This document shows positions 1 through 6,499 of a DNA stretch of 64,000 bases, piece after piece. How positions within the stretch are numbered: the stretch's first letter is position 1; each line of letters begins with the position of its first letter. The stretch is from Methylorubrum populi. GTDB lineage: Bacteria > Pseudomonadota > Alphaproteobacteria > Rhizobiales > Beijerinckiaceae. The stretch is taken from the NCBI RefSeq assembly GCF_002355515.1, contig NZ_AP014809.1, forward strand, positions 4,860,501 through 4,924,500, given 5' to 3'. The position numbers were made by a program, and so were the translations under genes. Under the pieces are notes generated by a model. It was not told where the DNA came from and did not search any database. It saw only the letters and a program-made list of their open reading frames with translations.

Positions 1-715
1 CTACAACAATGCCATTCGTTTCGTTGTAGTTGCAAATCTGCATCAGCTTATCAAATTCATTCTCAAAGCTATAGTAGTTCCTGTTGTCTTTGGCAAAAGA
101 CTTGTCTTTGACTGCCCAGCTTAGAGAATGTGTGTATATGTTGTAGAAGCATTTAGACACGTCGGCCGAGCGATGAAATCTGAACTTTGATTCAAGCCGG
201 ATGAACTCTCTTGAATCCATAAACTTTCCGAGCAGATTGTACTTTCCATATACAAAGAATGACGACAAATGTCCGACGTCGGGCTGTCCGTCTTCTCTAA
301 GCGCCTCTACAAGCCCTAATTTGAGCCCTTCGTCCGCTTCAGCAGTGACTACAGCGCCGTAGGGAGATGCAACGTCAGTTGGCCGACGAAGCGAAAATCG
401 GCTGTTCGCACAGTAGTTCAATAAGCTATTAGCATGAATTGTGTAGAATTCTGCGACTGCCATTTGAGCAAGAGGATGCACAATAGACAAAGTTGTGGTT
501 CGAGAGCTGTCTTTCGAAATCGTATAACTATAAGGTATTGTGAATGCCGTGCTTGGCTTGACAACTTTCAAGTATGCCTTCTCCACATCTGCGCTCATAG
601 GTGCGCAGAGGCCAAGATGAAATTTATCGTTCGAGAATATTACTGGAACTTCGTATGGCAATGTATCGGTTAATAGCGCGCGATACTTGACCGACGCGTG
701 CTTATCATTTCGCAT
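1..715 (-). CDS. drt3b: Drt3b-like antiviral reverse transcriptase (partial, runs off left edge)
   Basis: The first 238 residues are visible; the 3' part lies outside the window. The ATG at 715-713 overlaps the end of the upstream reverse transcriptase gene by 11 bp, which implies translational coupling. The N-terminus contains LLTDTLPYEVPVIFSN, then a region ending in SADVSKCFYNIYTHS, which fits RT motif A (Asp about residue 185). The last visible residues, ETNGIVV, fit the start of motif B. This layout, as the second gene after a separate shorter RT, fits the UG8/Drt3b partner of DRT type 3 defence systems. The catalytic motif C is not visible. The coding region is AT-rich compared with the backbone, consistent with horizontal transfer. 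The family call rests on remembered features of Drt3b proteins, not on an alignment. Confidence 0.8.
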   Translation of the reverse strand, partial: MRNDKHASVKYRALLTDTLPYEVPVIFSNDKFHLGLCAPMSADVEKAYLKVVKPSTAFTIPYSYTISKDSSRTTTLSIVHPLAQMAVAEFYTIHANSLLNYCANSRFSLRRPTDVASPYGAVVTAEADEGLKLGLVEALREDGQPDVGHLSSFFVYGKYNLLGKFMDSREFIRLESKFRFHRSADVSKCFYNIYTHSLSWAVKDKSFAKDNRNYYSFENEFDKLMQICNYNETNGIVV

Positions 716-1973
716 TTTGCCACACCGATTTTATTGATCTAAGCCTATCGTAACGTATTTTGATGGACATCCGGCTTGAAAATCCGTGAGGGAAACTCAC
801 TTTGCGCAACCGTTCCATCTGCTGATGATTCAGATTTTGTAAGAGATATCGCCGAAACCGATGCCTTTTGTTTCTGATCAAATTGTGATAAAATAAGTTT
901 ACTAAAGTCAATTCAGGCGGGGTTTGTTCTTCAGAACCGTCACAGGTGTGAATTCCGCAGTGTCTATAACTATAGTAGATTCCAGAAAGGAAGAAGTCAT
1001 TGCTTGCGACATAGCTGTTACCAACTCGCCTAAGCCGATAGTTTCCGCTTAAAAATTCCATTCTCTCGCAGAGTAAATTGCCATTCCCAGTTTTGACGAA
1101 TTCATTAAGGGCAAGTACTATACGTGTCTTCAGCTTAATAGTCTTTTTGTCCGACAAGGTAACTTCAACCTTGCGATGTTTGTTGCTGTCGCAGTAGTCC
1201 GATACAATGAACTTATATCCGAGGTACTCTATAGATTTTTTTGAAGTCGATTTCTTATCCTTATTAATAAGCGAGGTAGTTCCAAACTTTTCCGTATTGA
1301 AAGTCATCGGCTCGGGCAGAAGCTCACCAATTTTAATCTCTATCTGAGTTGGTTCAATAAAAGTAAAAATCAATATATCATCAGAATAGCGGAAGTACTT
1401 ATAGACGCCTTCAAGTCCGCGGACTTCCTTGTCAAAACGCTCCATCGCGAGCTCAACAATTGTTGAGCTGAGACCTACGCCGCGCGGAAGCCCGGCAGCT
1501 GCTCCATTGCAATGCGTTTCGAAAAAAGATCGAATATAGTGTCTTGTTGTCCTTGGGATCGCTGTGTCATATATAAGTCTTTTCCGAACTTCGTCGATAG
1601 GGATAGTTTCATAGAACGACTTTATGTCGCGCCGGATGATGTACATCGGCGTGGATTCTATCAGTGACTCGATCACCCCGTCGACGATAGACTCTCTACT
1701 CGGGTTTCTTATCCTAAAGCGGCTCGTTATATGCTTCGCAACTGCGCGAAGCAAGAGATTAGCATTGTAGTTATTATAACTTATGCACCTTCGCCCTTTA
1801 ATTTTTGACTTGACGAAAGATGTTAAATCAATCTCGCGGCAGGAAGCGCTTTCGGCTATTTCTGTGATAATAGCTTCTCGATCTTTTGCGAGATCAATTT
1901 TGAAGCGGGCTGAGTCACCTCTTCGTACTACGCGTTTAAGTGACTTGGCCGATAAGGCATTGCTTAGCGTCAT
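705..1973 (-). CDS. drt3a: Drt3a-like antiviral reverse transcriptase
   Basis: A 422-residue reverse transcriptase. RT motif A is RRDIKSFYE (Asp116), the motif B region is GLPRGVGLSS (161-170), and the catalytic motif C is YSDD (196-199), so both catalytic aspartates are present. The C-terminal ~200 residues are basic and carry no second enzyme domain that I recognise. There is no maturase or endonuclease domain, so a group II intron is unlikely. A second RT gene follows with an 11-bp overlap, as in DRT type 3 (UG3 + UG8), where the two RTs act with a noncoding RNA against phage. The gene is AT-rich and lies in a tRNA-linked island next to a serine recombinase. The ATG at 1973 has a weak GAGG-type ribosome site about 10 bases upstream. 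Confidence 0.85.
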   Translation of the reverse strand: MTLSNALSAKSLKRVVRRGDSARFKIDLAKDREAIITEIAESASCREIDLTSFVKSKIKGRRCISYNNYNANLLLRAVAKHITSRFRIRNPSRESIVDGVIESLIESTPMYIIRRDIKSFYETIPIDEVRKRLIYDTAIPRTTRHYIRSFFETHCNGAAAGLPRGVGLSSTIVELAMERFDKEVRGLEGVYKYFRYSDDILIFTFIEPTQIEIKIGELLPEPMTFNTEKFGTTSLINKDKKSTSKKSIEYLGYKFIVSDYCDSNKHRKVEVTLSDKKTIKLKTRIVLALNEFVKTGNGNLLCERMEFLSGNYRLRRVGNSYVASNDFFLSGIYYSYRHCGIHTCDGSEEQTPPELTLVNLFYHNLIRNKRHRFRRYLLQNLNHQQMERLRKVSFPHGFSSRMSIKIRYDRLRSIKSVWQNAK

Positions 1974-2219: not shown

Positions 2220-2789
2220 ATGGCGACCTATGGATATGCAAGGGTCAGTTCGGCCTCACAGTCCCTGACGATCCAACAGGAAGCCCTTCGCGCGTATGGG
2301 TGTGAGATCATCAGGGCGGAAACCCATACGGGCACCAAGGTCGAAGGGCGGACGGAGCTTGAGACGTTGCTTCAGTTTGCCAGGGCCGGGGATCGGATCG
2401 TCGTGACCCGCATAGATCGCCTTGCACGCTCCATCGCTGACCTATCAGCTATCGTGAAGCGGATGGAATCGATTGGCGTAATCCTCGTCGCCATCGAGCA
2501 GCCCATTGAGACGTCCACACCTGCTGGCCGATGCTTCCTACAGATGCTCGGCGTGTTCGCGGAATTCGAGACAGCGATCAGGCGTGAGCGTCAGATGGAG
2601 GGTATCGCCAAGGCCAAAGCCGAAGGGGCGTTCAAGGGCCGTAAGCCTTCTATCGACGCAATCCGTGTGAGGGAACTGGCGGCATCGGGCATGGGCGGCA
2701 CCGCGATCGCCAAGGAACTGCGGGTCAGCCGCGCCTCCGTCTACCGCCTGCTAGGGTCGGATCGGACGAAAGGTGTGGCAACCATTTGA
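2220..2789 (+). CDS. Serine recombinase (resolvase/invertase family)
   Basis: A 189-residue small serine recombinase. The N-terminal catalytic domain has YARVSS with the nucleophile at Ser10, followed by the usual TRIDRLARS segment (about residues 62-70) and the long E helix around 110-135. The C-terminus (about 145-180) has a Hin-like helix-turn-helix ending in VSRASVYRLL. Length and domain order match Tn3-type resolvases and invertases. It lies divergently from the reverse transcriptase pair inside the island and probably belonged to a transposon or resolves island multimers. No res site or invertible segment is evident nearby. The start ATG at 2220 follows AGAGACAATCACGCC. Confidence 0.9.
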   Translation: MATYGYARVSSASQSLTIQQEALRAYGCEIIRAETHTGTKVEGRTELETLLQFARAGDRIVVTRIDRLARSIADLSAIVKRMESIGVILVAIEQPIETSTPAGRCFLQMLGVFAEFETAIRRERQMEGIAKAKAEGAFKGRKPSIDAIRVRELAASGMGGTAIAKELRVSRASVYRLLGSDRTKGVATI

Positions 2790-3219: not shown

Positions 3220-3606
3220 TCATCCGGCATGCGATGTCCTTGTGCGGGTGTCAGCCAAGGCGTTCACAAGCTCATCTGCATCGAACGGCTTTTGAATCCT
3301 TGGCACCGAGGCAAACTTATCCGGGATACTTTCAAAATCATAGCCTGTTGCAAATATAAACGGGACGCCACGCTCACGTAGAACGTCAGCAAGCGGATAG
3401 ATCATCTTTCCACGAACGTTGATGTCTAGCATGGCGATGTCTGTGCGTAGCGCGGAACGCTCGAAGACATCATCATCAAGGTTGCCGTGCGCACCCACTA
3501 CGATGCCGCCAGCGGCTTCGACAATGCGCTTGACTTCATCCATGATCAGATACTCGTCTTCGACGATGAGAACTTTTGTATCTAACAATTGTTGGCGTTC
3601 GGCCAT
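3220..3606 (-). CDS. Stand-alone response-regulator receiver protein
   Basis: A 128-residue single CheY-like domain with no output domain. The acidic pair is in LIVEDEYLI (about residues 13-21), the phospho-acceptor aspartate is in MLDINV (about 59-64), the switch threonine is in FATGYD (about 84-89), and the conserved lysine is in QKPFD (about 104-108). It resembles single-domain receivers of the Rhizobiales that accept phosphate from HWE/HisKA2-type kinases. No kinase gene is next to it; its neighbours are a transposase remnant and a decayed gene, so it is island cargo. The partner is unknown. Confidence 0.85.
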   Translation of the reverse strand: MAERQQLLDTKVLIVEDEYLIMDEVKRIVEAAGGIVVGAHGNLDDDVFERSALRTDIAMLDINVRGKMIYPLADVLRERGVPFIFATGYDFESIPDKFASVPRIQKPFDADELVNALADTRTRTSHAG

Positions 3607-3681: not shown

Positions 3682-4490
3682 GAGCGGCATCCGATCAGGT
3701 TGCATCGTAGCCAGCTGCGGCGAAGTAGGCTCGGCACTCGGCTGGCGCGAAGCGGGACAGGCTGCGTCGGATGGCGTCCCAGAGGTCCGGGATGGTCCGC
3801 GCCGCTGCGCTGCGCAGCAGCGCCTTCAGCTTGGCGAAGGCCATCTCGATCGGGTTGAAGTCGGGGCTGTAGGCGGGGAGGTAGAGCAGCCGGGCTCCCA
3901 CGGCCTCGATACGCTCGCGGACGCCGCTGACCTTGTGGGCCGGCAGGTTGTCGAGCACGACGGTGTCGCCGGCCTTGAGGGTTGGGGCAAGCACGTCGGC
4001 CACATAGGTGCGGAAGGCCTGCCCGTTCATCGCACCGTCGAGCAGCCACGGTGCGGTGATGCCGTTGCTGCGCAAGGCCGCCGTGACGGTGGTGGTCTTC
4101 CAGTGGCCCTGAGGCACGCTCATCCGACAGCGCTCGCCGCGGGGCGCACGTCCGTAGCGGCGGGCCATGGCGGTGTTGGCGGCCGTCTCGTCGATGAACA
4201 CGAGGCCATCCGGATCGAGGTCGAGCTGGCCCTCGAACCACGCCTCGCGCGCAGCCCTCACGTCCGGCCGGTCTTGCTCGGCCGCGTGGCCCGTGCTTTT
4301 TTTCGCGAGATCCCATGGCGCTTGAAGAAGCGCGAAAGGCTGCTCTGAGCCACGCTGACGCCGCGCTCGGCCAGGGCCGCACGGAGTTCATGCAGGTAGA
4401 TGCCGGGCTGCGCCTCGTAGAGCGACAGGATCAGGTCGGCCTGCGTCTCGATCCGGTGCGAGCGTTGATCTCCGCCCATCGGCTTGGGTG
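3682..4490 (-). mobile_element. IS630-family insertion sequence remnant
   Basis: The element keeps its right end (probable inverted repeat starting GAGCGGCATCCG at 3682, next to a TA dinucleotide, the usual IS630 target) and most of its transposase gene. The other end is missing: the transposase reading frame stops matching the family upstream of PKPMGGDQRSHRIE, where the DNA continues as an integrase gene. A deletion that fused the truncated element to the integrase would explain this. Confidence 0.75.
3695..4490 (-). pseudogene. IS630-family transposase, N-terminally truncated, with -1 frameshift
   Basis: Two overlapping frames make one DDE transposase. The first frame carries PMGGDQRSHRIETQAD and a helix-turn-helix ending in FKRHGISRKK. 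At an A7 run (minus strand; 4297-4303 on plus) a -1 shift continues into KKSTGHAAEQDRPDV and the catalytic domain, with VFIDET, VVLDNLPAHK and YSPDFNPIEMAFAKLK giving the D, D and E residues. Slippery A runs of this kind are known in IS630 elements, so the shift itself is probably programmed. The first 40-60 residues of the usual N-terminus are absent, so the copy is probably inactive. The catalytic part ends at 3695. Confidence 0.8.
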
Positions 4491-5098
4491 TCGTTTTTGT
4501 TGATGGCACGCGGTGAAACGCCTTCGACATCGCGCCGGTGTTCTGCCCACCCATACAGGTCATCGGCCGTAAGCGTTCGAACGTCACGCTTCTTGGCGAA
4601 GGCCCCAAGCGAACGGAAACTGTTGCGGTACCGCTTGATGGTGTTGAGGGCCTTCTTATCCGCGCTGTATGCGGCCCACCGCTCAAACAGATCGCACACG
4701 GTGATGGGAGGCGTCTTCGATTCACTCGATGCAGTGGCCGCCCTTGAGCGTGGCTTTTCAGCGTCCAGATTCGCAACCGGAATAGGATCAGCGTGTCCGG
4801 CACCCTTCAAGGGCTGATCGGATTCAGCGCATCCCTTGGAGCCATCCCTGCAGGCCTGCCAGATGAGCTTCAAAGCCCCATCGGCGACCGAATGCCAGAT
4901 GCGCGCTTGATTCGGCTCTTTCGTCCGCAACGACACTTGGACGATGACACCGACCATGACCGACACCCGCAAGCTACCCACCGGCAGTGTTACGGACTGT
5001 CCCTTCAAGCTCGGGAGAATGTCACGGGGAGTTCGTTGCCGTAGATGGTAGACCCCTGTCTTAGGGTCCTTCCACGGTCGGGCTACTCTGAGAGGCAC
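4487..5098 (-). pseudogene. Tyrosine-type phage integrase, N-terminal fragment
   Basis: The frame starts MPLRVARPWKDPKTGVYHLR, the typical beginning of DUF6538-type integrases, and continues into a SAM-like core-binding region (VCDLFERWAAYSADKKAL to SPRAINKND). It then runs straight into IS630 sequence near 4487-4490. The whole catalytic domain with the R..H-x-x-R..Y residues is gone, so the gene is dead. Its start lies 83 bp from the 3' end of the tRNA-Leu gene and reads away from it, the usual place for an integrase of an island inserted at a tRNA. The original island can therefore no longer excise with this enzyme. Confidence 0.8.
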
Positions 5099-5181
5099 TG
5101 TGTGTGAGACCGCTGTGTGAGAGTGCGGTCATCCTCATCTCTATCATCCACCTAACCTCTTCCCATCGTTAGGAAAAAGGT

Positions 5182-5266
5182 TGGTGCGGCCAAGAGGACT
5201 CGAACCTCCACCCCTCGCGGGACTAGCACCTCAAGCTAGCGCGTCTACCAATTCCGCCATGGCCGC
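5182..5266 (-). tRNA. tRNA-Leu (anticodon GAG)
   Basis: An 85-base class II tRNA with acceptor stem GCGGCCA/TGGCCGC, D-arm sequence AATTGGTAGACGCGC, anticodon stem CTAGC/GCTAG around the loop TTGAGGT (anticodon GAG), a long variable arm, T-loop GGTTCGAGTC and an encoded CCA end. The gene reads toward the integrase fragment, so its 3' end is the likely attachment site of the island that occupies lower coordinates. A second copy of the 3' end would be expected at the far side of the island, outside this window. Confidence 0.95.
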
Positions 5267-5392
5267 CCTTGCCGCCGTGCCGCTTCGTCAGCGGCCGGTG
5301 TCTTGTGTGGGCGGCGCAGCGGATAACAGAAGCCCGGGGCGGGCACAAGCGCCGGATTCGCTTCTTCGCATTTTGCCGCCTCGGAAAACGCG

Positions 5393-5698
5393 TCAGAGCC
5401 CCGCATCCGTGTCGTCGAGGATCGGCACGGCGCCCTCGCCGATCGTCACGCCGGGGGTGCGCACCACCTCGGCCTTGCGGATCAGCTCGGTCACCTCCAC
5501 GGAGATGCGGTTGCCGGTCACCACGATCTGCCCGCGGGCGATCGGATGGTCGTTGGCGAGGATCTCGACCATGTCGGTCTCGGTGGCCTCCAGTTCGATC
5601 ACCGCGCCGCGGCCCATGCGCAGCAGCATGTGCAGCGGCATGTGGCTGCGCCCCAGCACGACCTTGAGATCGACCTGCAATTCGTCCAGGACCGCCAC
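5393..5698 (-). CDS. fliN: Flagellar motor switch protein FliN-like
   Basis: A 101-residue protein made almost entirely of a SpoA domain: [20 protein letters not shown], then a [17 protein letters not shown] segment and [12 protein letters not shown]. This is the C-ring component FliN, which with FliM and FliG forms the flagellar switch at the inner membrane. Length is at the short end of the family, as expected when the variable N-terminus is minimal. It stands alone here, with no other flagellar gene in the window, and is divergent from lipB with only about 57 bp between the starts. It could also be a paralogue of the main fliN. Confidence 0.85.
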
Positions 5699-5755
5699 GC
5701 GCGGATGCTCCGTTTGTCAACCCTCGGACAACCTTCCGCATGCAAGGGTGAAGTC

Positions 5756-6499
5756 TTGGTAAACAATTCCTTCACGGCGCCCGCTTCCCGGCTTTCGATC
5801 GCACCCGCGACATTCCTGCCGCGCACGGGCGCGCCGCCGGTGGCCTGGCGCGTGACCGACGCCCTCGTCGACTACGCGGCGGCGGAGGCCGAGATGGAGG
5901 CGCGCGCCGCGGCGATCGCCCGGGGTGAGGCGGACGAGCTGGTCTGGCTCCTCGAGCATCCGCCGCTCTACACCGCGGGCACCTCGGCCAAGGCCGCCGA
6001 CCTCGTCGAGCCGGACCGCTTCCCCGTTCACCGCACGGGGCGGGGCGGCCAGTACACCTATCACGGGCCGGGCCAGCGCATCGCCTACGTGATGCTCGAC
6101 CTCAACCGGCGGAAGCCCGATCTGCGGGCCTACGTGGCGAGCCTGGAGGCGTGGCTGATCGCGACGCTCGACGCCTACAACGTCCGGGCCGAGCGCCGCG
6201 AGGACCGGGTCGGCGTCTGGGTGCGCCGCCCGGAGAAGGGCGAGGTGAACGGTGTCTGCGTCGAGGACAAGATCGTGGCGATCGGCATCCGGGTGCGGCG
6301 CTGGGTCAGCCTGCACGGCATCAGCCTCAACGTCGAGCCGGACCTGTCGCACTTCTCCGGCATCGTGCCCTGCGGCGTGCGCGAGCACGGCGTCACGAGC
6401 CTGGCCGATCTCGGCCGCATCGTCAGCCTGCCCGAGGTGGACATGGCGCTGCGCGCGGCCTTCGAGCCGATCTTCGGCCCGACCCGCGACGAGGCCTGA
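5756..6499 (+). CDS. lipB: Octanoyltransferase LipB
   Basis: Transfers octanoate from acyl carrier protein to lipoyl domains, the first step of lipoate synthesis. Family motifs are [11 protein letters not shown], then [15 protein letters not shown] (the substrate loop) and [17 protein letters not shown] with the catalytic lysine/cysteine region; the cysteine lies in [16 protein letters not shown] choose the TTG at 5756 (about 247 residues) because AGGGTGAAG precedes it and earlier in-frame starts overlap the divergent fliN gene. It ends before palindromic intergenic repeats that separate it from a convergent glycosyltransferase gene. Confidence 0.9.

Follow-up and report, generated by a model that had tools for sequence, protein, structure and literature searches.

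A divergent DRT3 reverse transcriptase pair with a likely template RNA in a Methylobacterium tRNA-Leu islet

Two different reverse transcriptases (RTs) are encoded at the left edge of the window, a 64,000-nucleotide stretch of a Methylobacterium genome (G000:C1:4860501-4924500), and the second of them runs off that edge. A first-pass annotation, made from the letters alone, took their layout for that of the DRT3 (Drt3a/Drt3b) defence systems, which raises the question of whether the pair indeed belongs to this family and, if so, whether the system is complete. To the left, the locus was followed in a stretch of the same genome reaching 14.5 kb further (L003; window position = L003 position minus 14501). 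The two genes are:

705-1973, minus strand: drt3a, 422 aa, UG3-type RT with motif C YSDD
1-715, minus strand, continuing outside the window to L003:13288: drt3b, with the first 238 of its 642 codons in the window

The open reading frames agree with what had been described inside the window, namely, two distinct minus-strand RTs that overlap by 11 bp (705-715), the first of 422 residues with YSDD, the second beginning inside the first, carrying DVSKCFYNIYTHS and TNGIVV, and cut by the edge after 238 residues. Motif C of the second RT, which the annotation proposed to seek by extending the sequence leftward, is present as YVDD at residues 278-281 of a protein that, read in its own genome, is 642 aa long to the stop codon. 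Pfam RVT_1 was found in both proteins, and these two RTs are its only matches genome-wide at E<=0.001.

Both proteins score as DRT3 by profile comparison rather than by tree placement. The profile search suggested for UG3/Drt3a and UG8/Drt3b gave 332.6 bits for Drt3a (NCBIfam NF041747, cut-off 200) and 571.9 bits for Drt3b (NF041748, cut-off 350), and the margins over other RT families among the PADLOC profiles are wide: 321.7 bits for Drt3a against 81.5 for the next-best family, RT_UG17, and 576 bits for Drt3b against 152.7 for Drt6. Solved Drt3b chains match by sequence at E 2.3e-98 (26cz_A) and E 5.1e-76 (9z6y_H), and the solved Drt3a chain 9z6y_A matches Drt3a of this locus at E 1.3e-32. 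That the pair consists of other RTs, such as those of retrons, Abi systems or group II introns, and only resembles DRT3 is exceedingly improbable: there are weak matches to the group II RT model TIGR04416 (45.1 and 29.6 bits for the two RTs) and to the retron St85 model (32.9 and 27.8 bits), but these fall far below the respective cut-offs of 300 and 235, whereas the Drt3a and Drt3b models score well above theirs, and the gene order drt3a-drt3b-RNA is that of DRT3. Retrons, Abi, group II introns and the other UG families were ruled out by the profile scores. The annotation had named a missing motif C, or a grouping with retrons, Abi-type RTs or group II introns, as outcomes that would speak against its proposal; what was found instead is YVDD and profile scores for DRT3.

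The E. coli DRT3 system (26cz_A, 9z6y/9z6z), as set out in the part of PMC13174585 used here, has the same order as this locus, that is, drt3a and drt3b, overlapping or adjacent, and then the AC-template RNA. In E. coli Drt3b, according to the same source, E22 and R241 select dA and dC, Y666 primes synthesis, and R71 stacks on the incoming dA. Alignment to 26cz_A places E22, R241, YVDD and Y666 of the E. coli protein opposite E22, R244, YVDD and Y639 here (the offset of 108 between the chain and the protein numbering is our own count and agrees with E22), so the Glu and Arg gates, the catalytic motif and the C-terminal Tyr are common to both systems. The sequence likeness is nevertheless distant, as the E value for Drt3a indicates, and there are differences of detail: motif C of Drt3a is YSDD here and YVDD in 9z6y_A, and Y639, the fourth residue from the C-terminal end, is followed by three residues, against one in 26cz_A by our own count.

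A search for Drt3b homologs among 7998 scored candidates returned 2578 at E<=1e-20, and residues were counted in the best 120 of these 2578, the protein itself included. E22 is present in 119 of the 120 (one fragment is gapped there), R244 and the last Asp of YVDD in 120/120, and Y639 in 118/120. The stacking residue is the exception: Thr74 stands opposite R71 of E. coli Drt3b, and an Arg, Arg72, occurs two residues earlier. Among the best 120 of the 2578 homologs together with 20 from the loci described below, Arg is found at position 72 in 92/140 and at position 74 in 17/140. As a guess, Arg72 could take the place of R71 of E. coli Drt3b.

The third component lies outside the window, and the earlier reader missed it. 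The DRT3 ncRNA with its 5'-ACACAC-3' template is placed downstream of drt3b in the part of PMC13174585 used here, and the corresponding region of this locus contains:

about L003:13145-13287, minus strand, outside the window: likely template RNA, directly after the drt3b stop
L003:13173-13182, minus strand, 106-115 nt past the drt3b stop: CACACACACA tract, predicted template of Drt3a

In the unconstrained predicted fold, the CACACACACA tract is unpaired, and the fold of the whole RNA exceeds chance only to a moderate degree (z -2.23; 4/200 shuffles equally good). When the tract is constrained to stay open, the predicted fold has a long closing helix that begins a few nt past the stop and encloses three hairpins; the tract comes immediately before the 3' strand of this helix, which was matched by 0/1000 shuffles. 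Most of the remaining long-RNA loci that were folded are predicted to have a similar layout, and four loci (L023, L024, L025, L027) have a short form in which the tract lies 41-43 nt past the stop with one or two hairpins inside, and the closing helix beats chance at 0.05 in L024 and L025 only. Over all loci tested, the closing helix reached p<=0.05 in 16/22 and p<=0.01 in 10/22, values that cannot be combined into a quotable probability because the test is post hoc, with stretches picked after viewing the folds, and the loci are not independent. Those that missed p<=0.05 are L023, L027, L031, L033, L035 and L036; for L036, the test used the first of two tracts, and the second sits in a context shared with L026. 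An Rfam search found no family for the downstream RNA at E<=1; the Rfam matches at the locus are the tRNA and, inside drt3a, a snoRNA model that scores 18.4 bits against a gathering threshold of 90. Judging from the predicted fold, the downstream RNA with its unpaired CACACACACA is likely the expected Drt3a template.

The nearest relative with known context, Methylobacterium sp. J-026 (L004, P0003), encodes a Drt3b that is 55-56% identical, with an adjoining drt3a and a divergent resolvase, as here, and with a ACACACACA tract 101 nt past drt3b. Unlike the locus described here, which sits at a tRNA-Leu gene, it shows no tRNA gene across the 13.9 kb retrieved. DRT10 and DRT9, which make repeat DNA on an RNA template, are alike in having the template tract in an ncRNA loop, and are set apart by their description in the part of PMC13174585 used here, which includes no second, protein-templated RT for them.

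We then compared 27 loci in which drt3b is intact. Each of the 27 has an AC tract of 6 nt or more in the 260 nt that follow drt3b; upstream of drt3a, there is one in 0/27 (9 of the 27 upstream stretches are shorter than 260 nt), and on the antisense strand in 1/27. For the first 19 loci, the mean chance of a tract in shuffles of the 250 nt past drt3b was 0.10, and of 710 windows of 250 nt cut from these loci, 33 contain a tract, a count that includes the tract-holding windows themselves. Gate 1 of Drt3b is Glu in 24/27 and Asp in 3/27, gate 2 is Arg in 27/27, and the C-terminal Tyr is present in 26/27; in L008, this Tyr is the last residue and is out of register. A different tract where Glu22 is replaced by Asp was considered and rejected, the three Asp loci (L031, L038, L082) having the AC tract.

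The 27-locus count leaves aside repeats of other loci (L007, L013 and L014, of L006, L003 and L004), parts of L003 (L001, L002), two loci with a shortened drt3b (L011, L012), one with drt3b split into two ORFs (L032), and loci retrieved with different aims (L015-L022, L039-L077), and it includes the close pairs L009/L010, L026/L036, L029/L030, L078/L079 and L080/L081. In the shortened-drt3b loci L011 and L012, no tract was found within 600 nt of the end of the shortened ORF. Four loci were taken from 22 matching E. coli genomes and eight from 205 matching plasmid records. The named records among the 27 loci come from Alpha-, Beta- and Gammaproteobacteria and Bacteroidota.

The comparison suggests a single repeat across Pseudomonadota and Bacteroidota, with concrete loci on which to examine it. 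For reference, the RNA model of PMC13174585 was built on EcoDRT3 and its close relatives (41 homologous systems according to the legend, 32 unique hits according to the methods, in the part of the paper used here). The range of DRT3, and whether it has a shared architecture or subtypes with different repeats, is given as an open question in the corresponding part of PMC13314766; judging from sequence, the 27-locus sample shows no sign of such different repeats. A DRT3-wide lock of the RNA and protein templates to one dinucleotide is conceivable: whatever the drift of the RNA, the tract would remain (CA)n, with Glu/Asp and Arg at the gates, so DRT3 would generally make TG/CA duplex DNA, and the stacking Arg of the present clade, apparently shifted by two residues, would obey the same rule. 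We consider the chances of this reading to be about even. The present locus is of use chiefly as a member of a set of loci that keep the AC template in company with its protein counterpart.

The annotation had further considered the pair a transferred defence cargo, citing its AT-rich composition and its position near a tRNA gene. Both observations hold: G+C is 41-46% across drt3a and drt3b against 63-74% in the left flank, and the two genes belong to an AT-rich islet of 6.8 kb bounded by 34-nt direct repeats at tRNA-Leu(gag), which are 94% identical and start at L003:12869 and 19672, a spacing of 6803 bp. Besides the DRT3 components, the islet and its boundaries comprise:

L003:12869-12902, outside the window: left 34-nt direct repeat, 94% identity to the right copy
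2220-2789, plus strand: serine recombinase of the resolvase/invertase type, divergent from drt3a (PF00239, 130.6 bits)
3220-3606: response-regulator-like ORF, 128 aa (Pfam, 27.3 bits, just below the cut-off of 30.2)
3695-4803, minus strand: IS630-family transposase remnant in two frames, 3695-4261 and 4258-4803
4388-5098, minus strand: tyrosine-integrase-like N-terminal remnant (DUF6538, 28.2 bits, cut-off 27)
5171-5204: att-like right copy of the 34-nt direct repeat; overlaps tRNA-Leu(gag) at the 3' end of the tRNA gene
5182-5266: tRNA-Leu(gag), found with ARAGORN

The first frame of the IS630 remnant (3695-4261) matches NF033545 at 142.4 bits over model positions 126-297 of 299, and the second (4258-4803) is taken from the ORF list. 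The integrase remnant reaches 19.3 bits with Phage_int_SAM_1, below the cut-off of 22.3, and the catalytic domain PF00589 has no match at E<=0.001 in the islet segment. The statement that no integrase accompanies the RTs therefore does not stand, in view of the N-terminal remnant at 4388-5098. The serine recombinase is probably part of the islet backbone and not of DRT3. Relatives of it are found in L004, beside drt3a (L004:3935-4564, 285 bits), and in L073 (212 bits); a recombinase of this kind lies next to drt3a in divergent orientation in each of the two Methylobacterium DRT3 loci, and the L073 relative occupies the same tRNA-Leu site of G014, a genome without a Drt3b over the cut-off.

In two other genomes, G107 and G014, the tRNA gene and the aldehyde-dehydrogenase-like gene that flank the site here enclose different contents, the stretch between them being 7.0 kb here versus about 2.1 kb in G107 and 5.7 kb in G014. 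The comparison of these sites yielded no strictly empty one; the differing contents indicate that the tRNA site is variable, and the view of a transferred cargo therefore holds, the direct repeats at the tRNA gene being further in its favor.

We conclude that a complete DRT3 defence system very probably sits in this tRNA-Leu islet. If it works as its E. coli counterpart does, Drt3a would repeatedly copy CACACACACA of the downstream RNA into poly(TG), and Drt3b would start DNA on its C-terminal Tyr639 without a nucleic-acid template, Glu22 and Arg244 directing the alternating incorporation of C and A into poly(CA). The two strands would pair into a repeat duplex DNA, and phage growth would be halted; how arrest is finally reached is left open for the E. 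coli system in the part of PMC13174585 used here.

Two other explanations start from DRT3 as well. The system could be a relic, intact in sequence, that has lost its expression or effect in this host. The islet holds an integrase remnant without the catalytic domain, along with the IS630 remnant, and as its integrase is broken, the cargo may simply be stranded; in addition, the G+C content of the islet is far under that of the host, and Drt3b is over the curated cut-off in just 2 of the 111 genomes of the genus, this one included. Nevertheless, both reading frames are whole, the catalytic, gate and priming residues are retained, and so are the tract and the closing helix, a state that decay is unlikely to leave, which makes a relic improbable. 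A DRT3 with a product of another length or sequence appears a shade less probable still. The tract is longer, 10 nt compared to the 6 nt given for E. coli DRT3 in the part of PMC13174585 used here, and the stacking Arg seems displaced, with Thr74 opposite R71 and the distribution of Arg over positions 72 and 74 reported above, but neither of the main gates has changed, nor has the dinucleotide of the tract. The complete DRT3 system thus remains our preferred reading: a rare, divergent member of a recently explained family, for which a departure from the known mechanism is not proven.

The rarity extends beyond the genus. Drt3b is over the cut-off in 4/397 genomes of the order sample, 5/385 of the class sample and 2/398 of the phylum sample, samples that overlap with one another and with that of the genus and each count this genome, and in 2/18 and 2/29 genomes of two small samples centred on further positive genomes. 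A pattern matched 12 stretches of viral contigs, none of which encoded a relative; among phage records, 9 had a match and none covered 80% of the query. No paper in the literature searched combines DRT3 and Methylobacterium. The locus adds a divergent, complete-looking DRT3 that is not enterobacterial and for which the likely template RNA could be placed.

Several loci of the comparison depart from the common pattern in single residues. In L078 (E. coli CFSAN064035; drt3b at 3960-5999), Drt3b has a divergent C-terminus without the priming Tyr, which is present in the related L079. Motif C of Drt3b is YVDN instead of YVDD in 3 of the 27 intact loci (L026, L036 and L082), all of which retain the gate Arg, the C-terminal Tyr and the downstream CA tract. 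The part of PMC13174585 used here states that in E. coli Drt3b the first Asp of motif C (D278) alone binds metal; YVDN proteins may therefore be active, as far as can be judged from sequence. In Drt3a, motif C is YSDD or YADD in 5 of the 21 aligned proteins (L003, L004, L005, L006 and L028) and YVDD or FVDD in the other 16.
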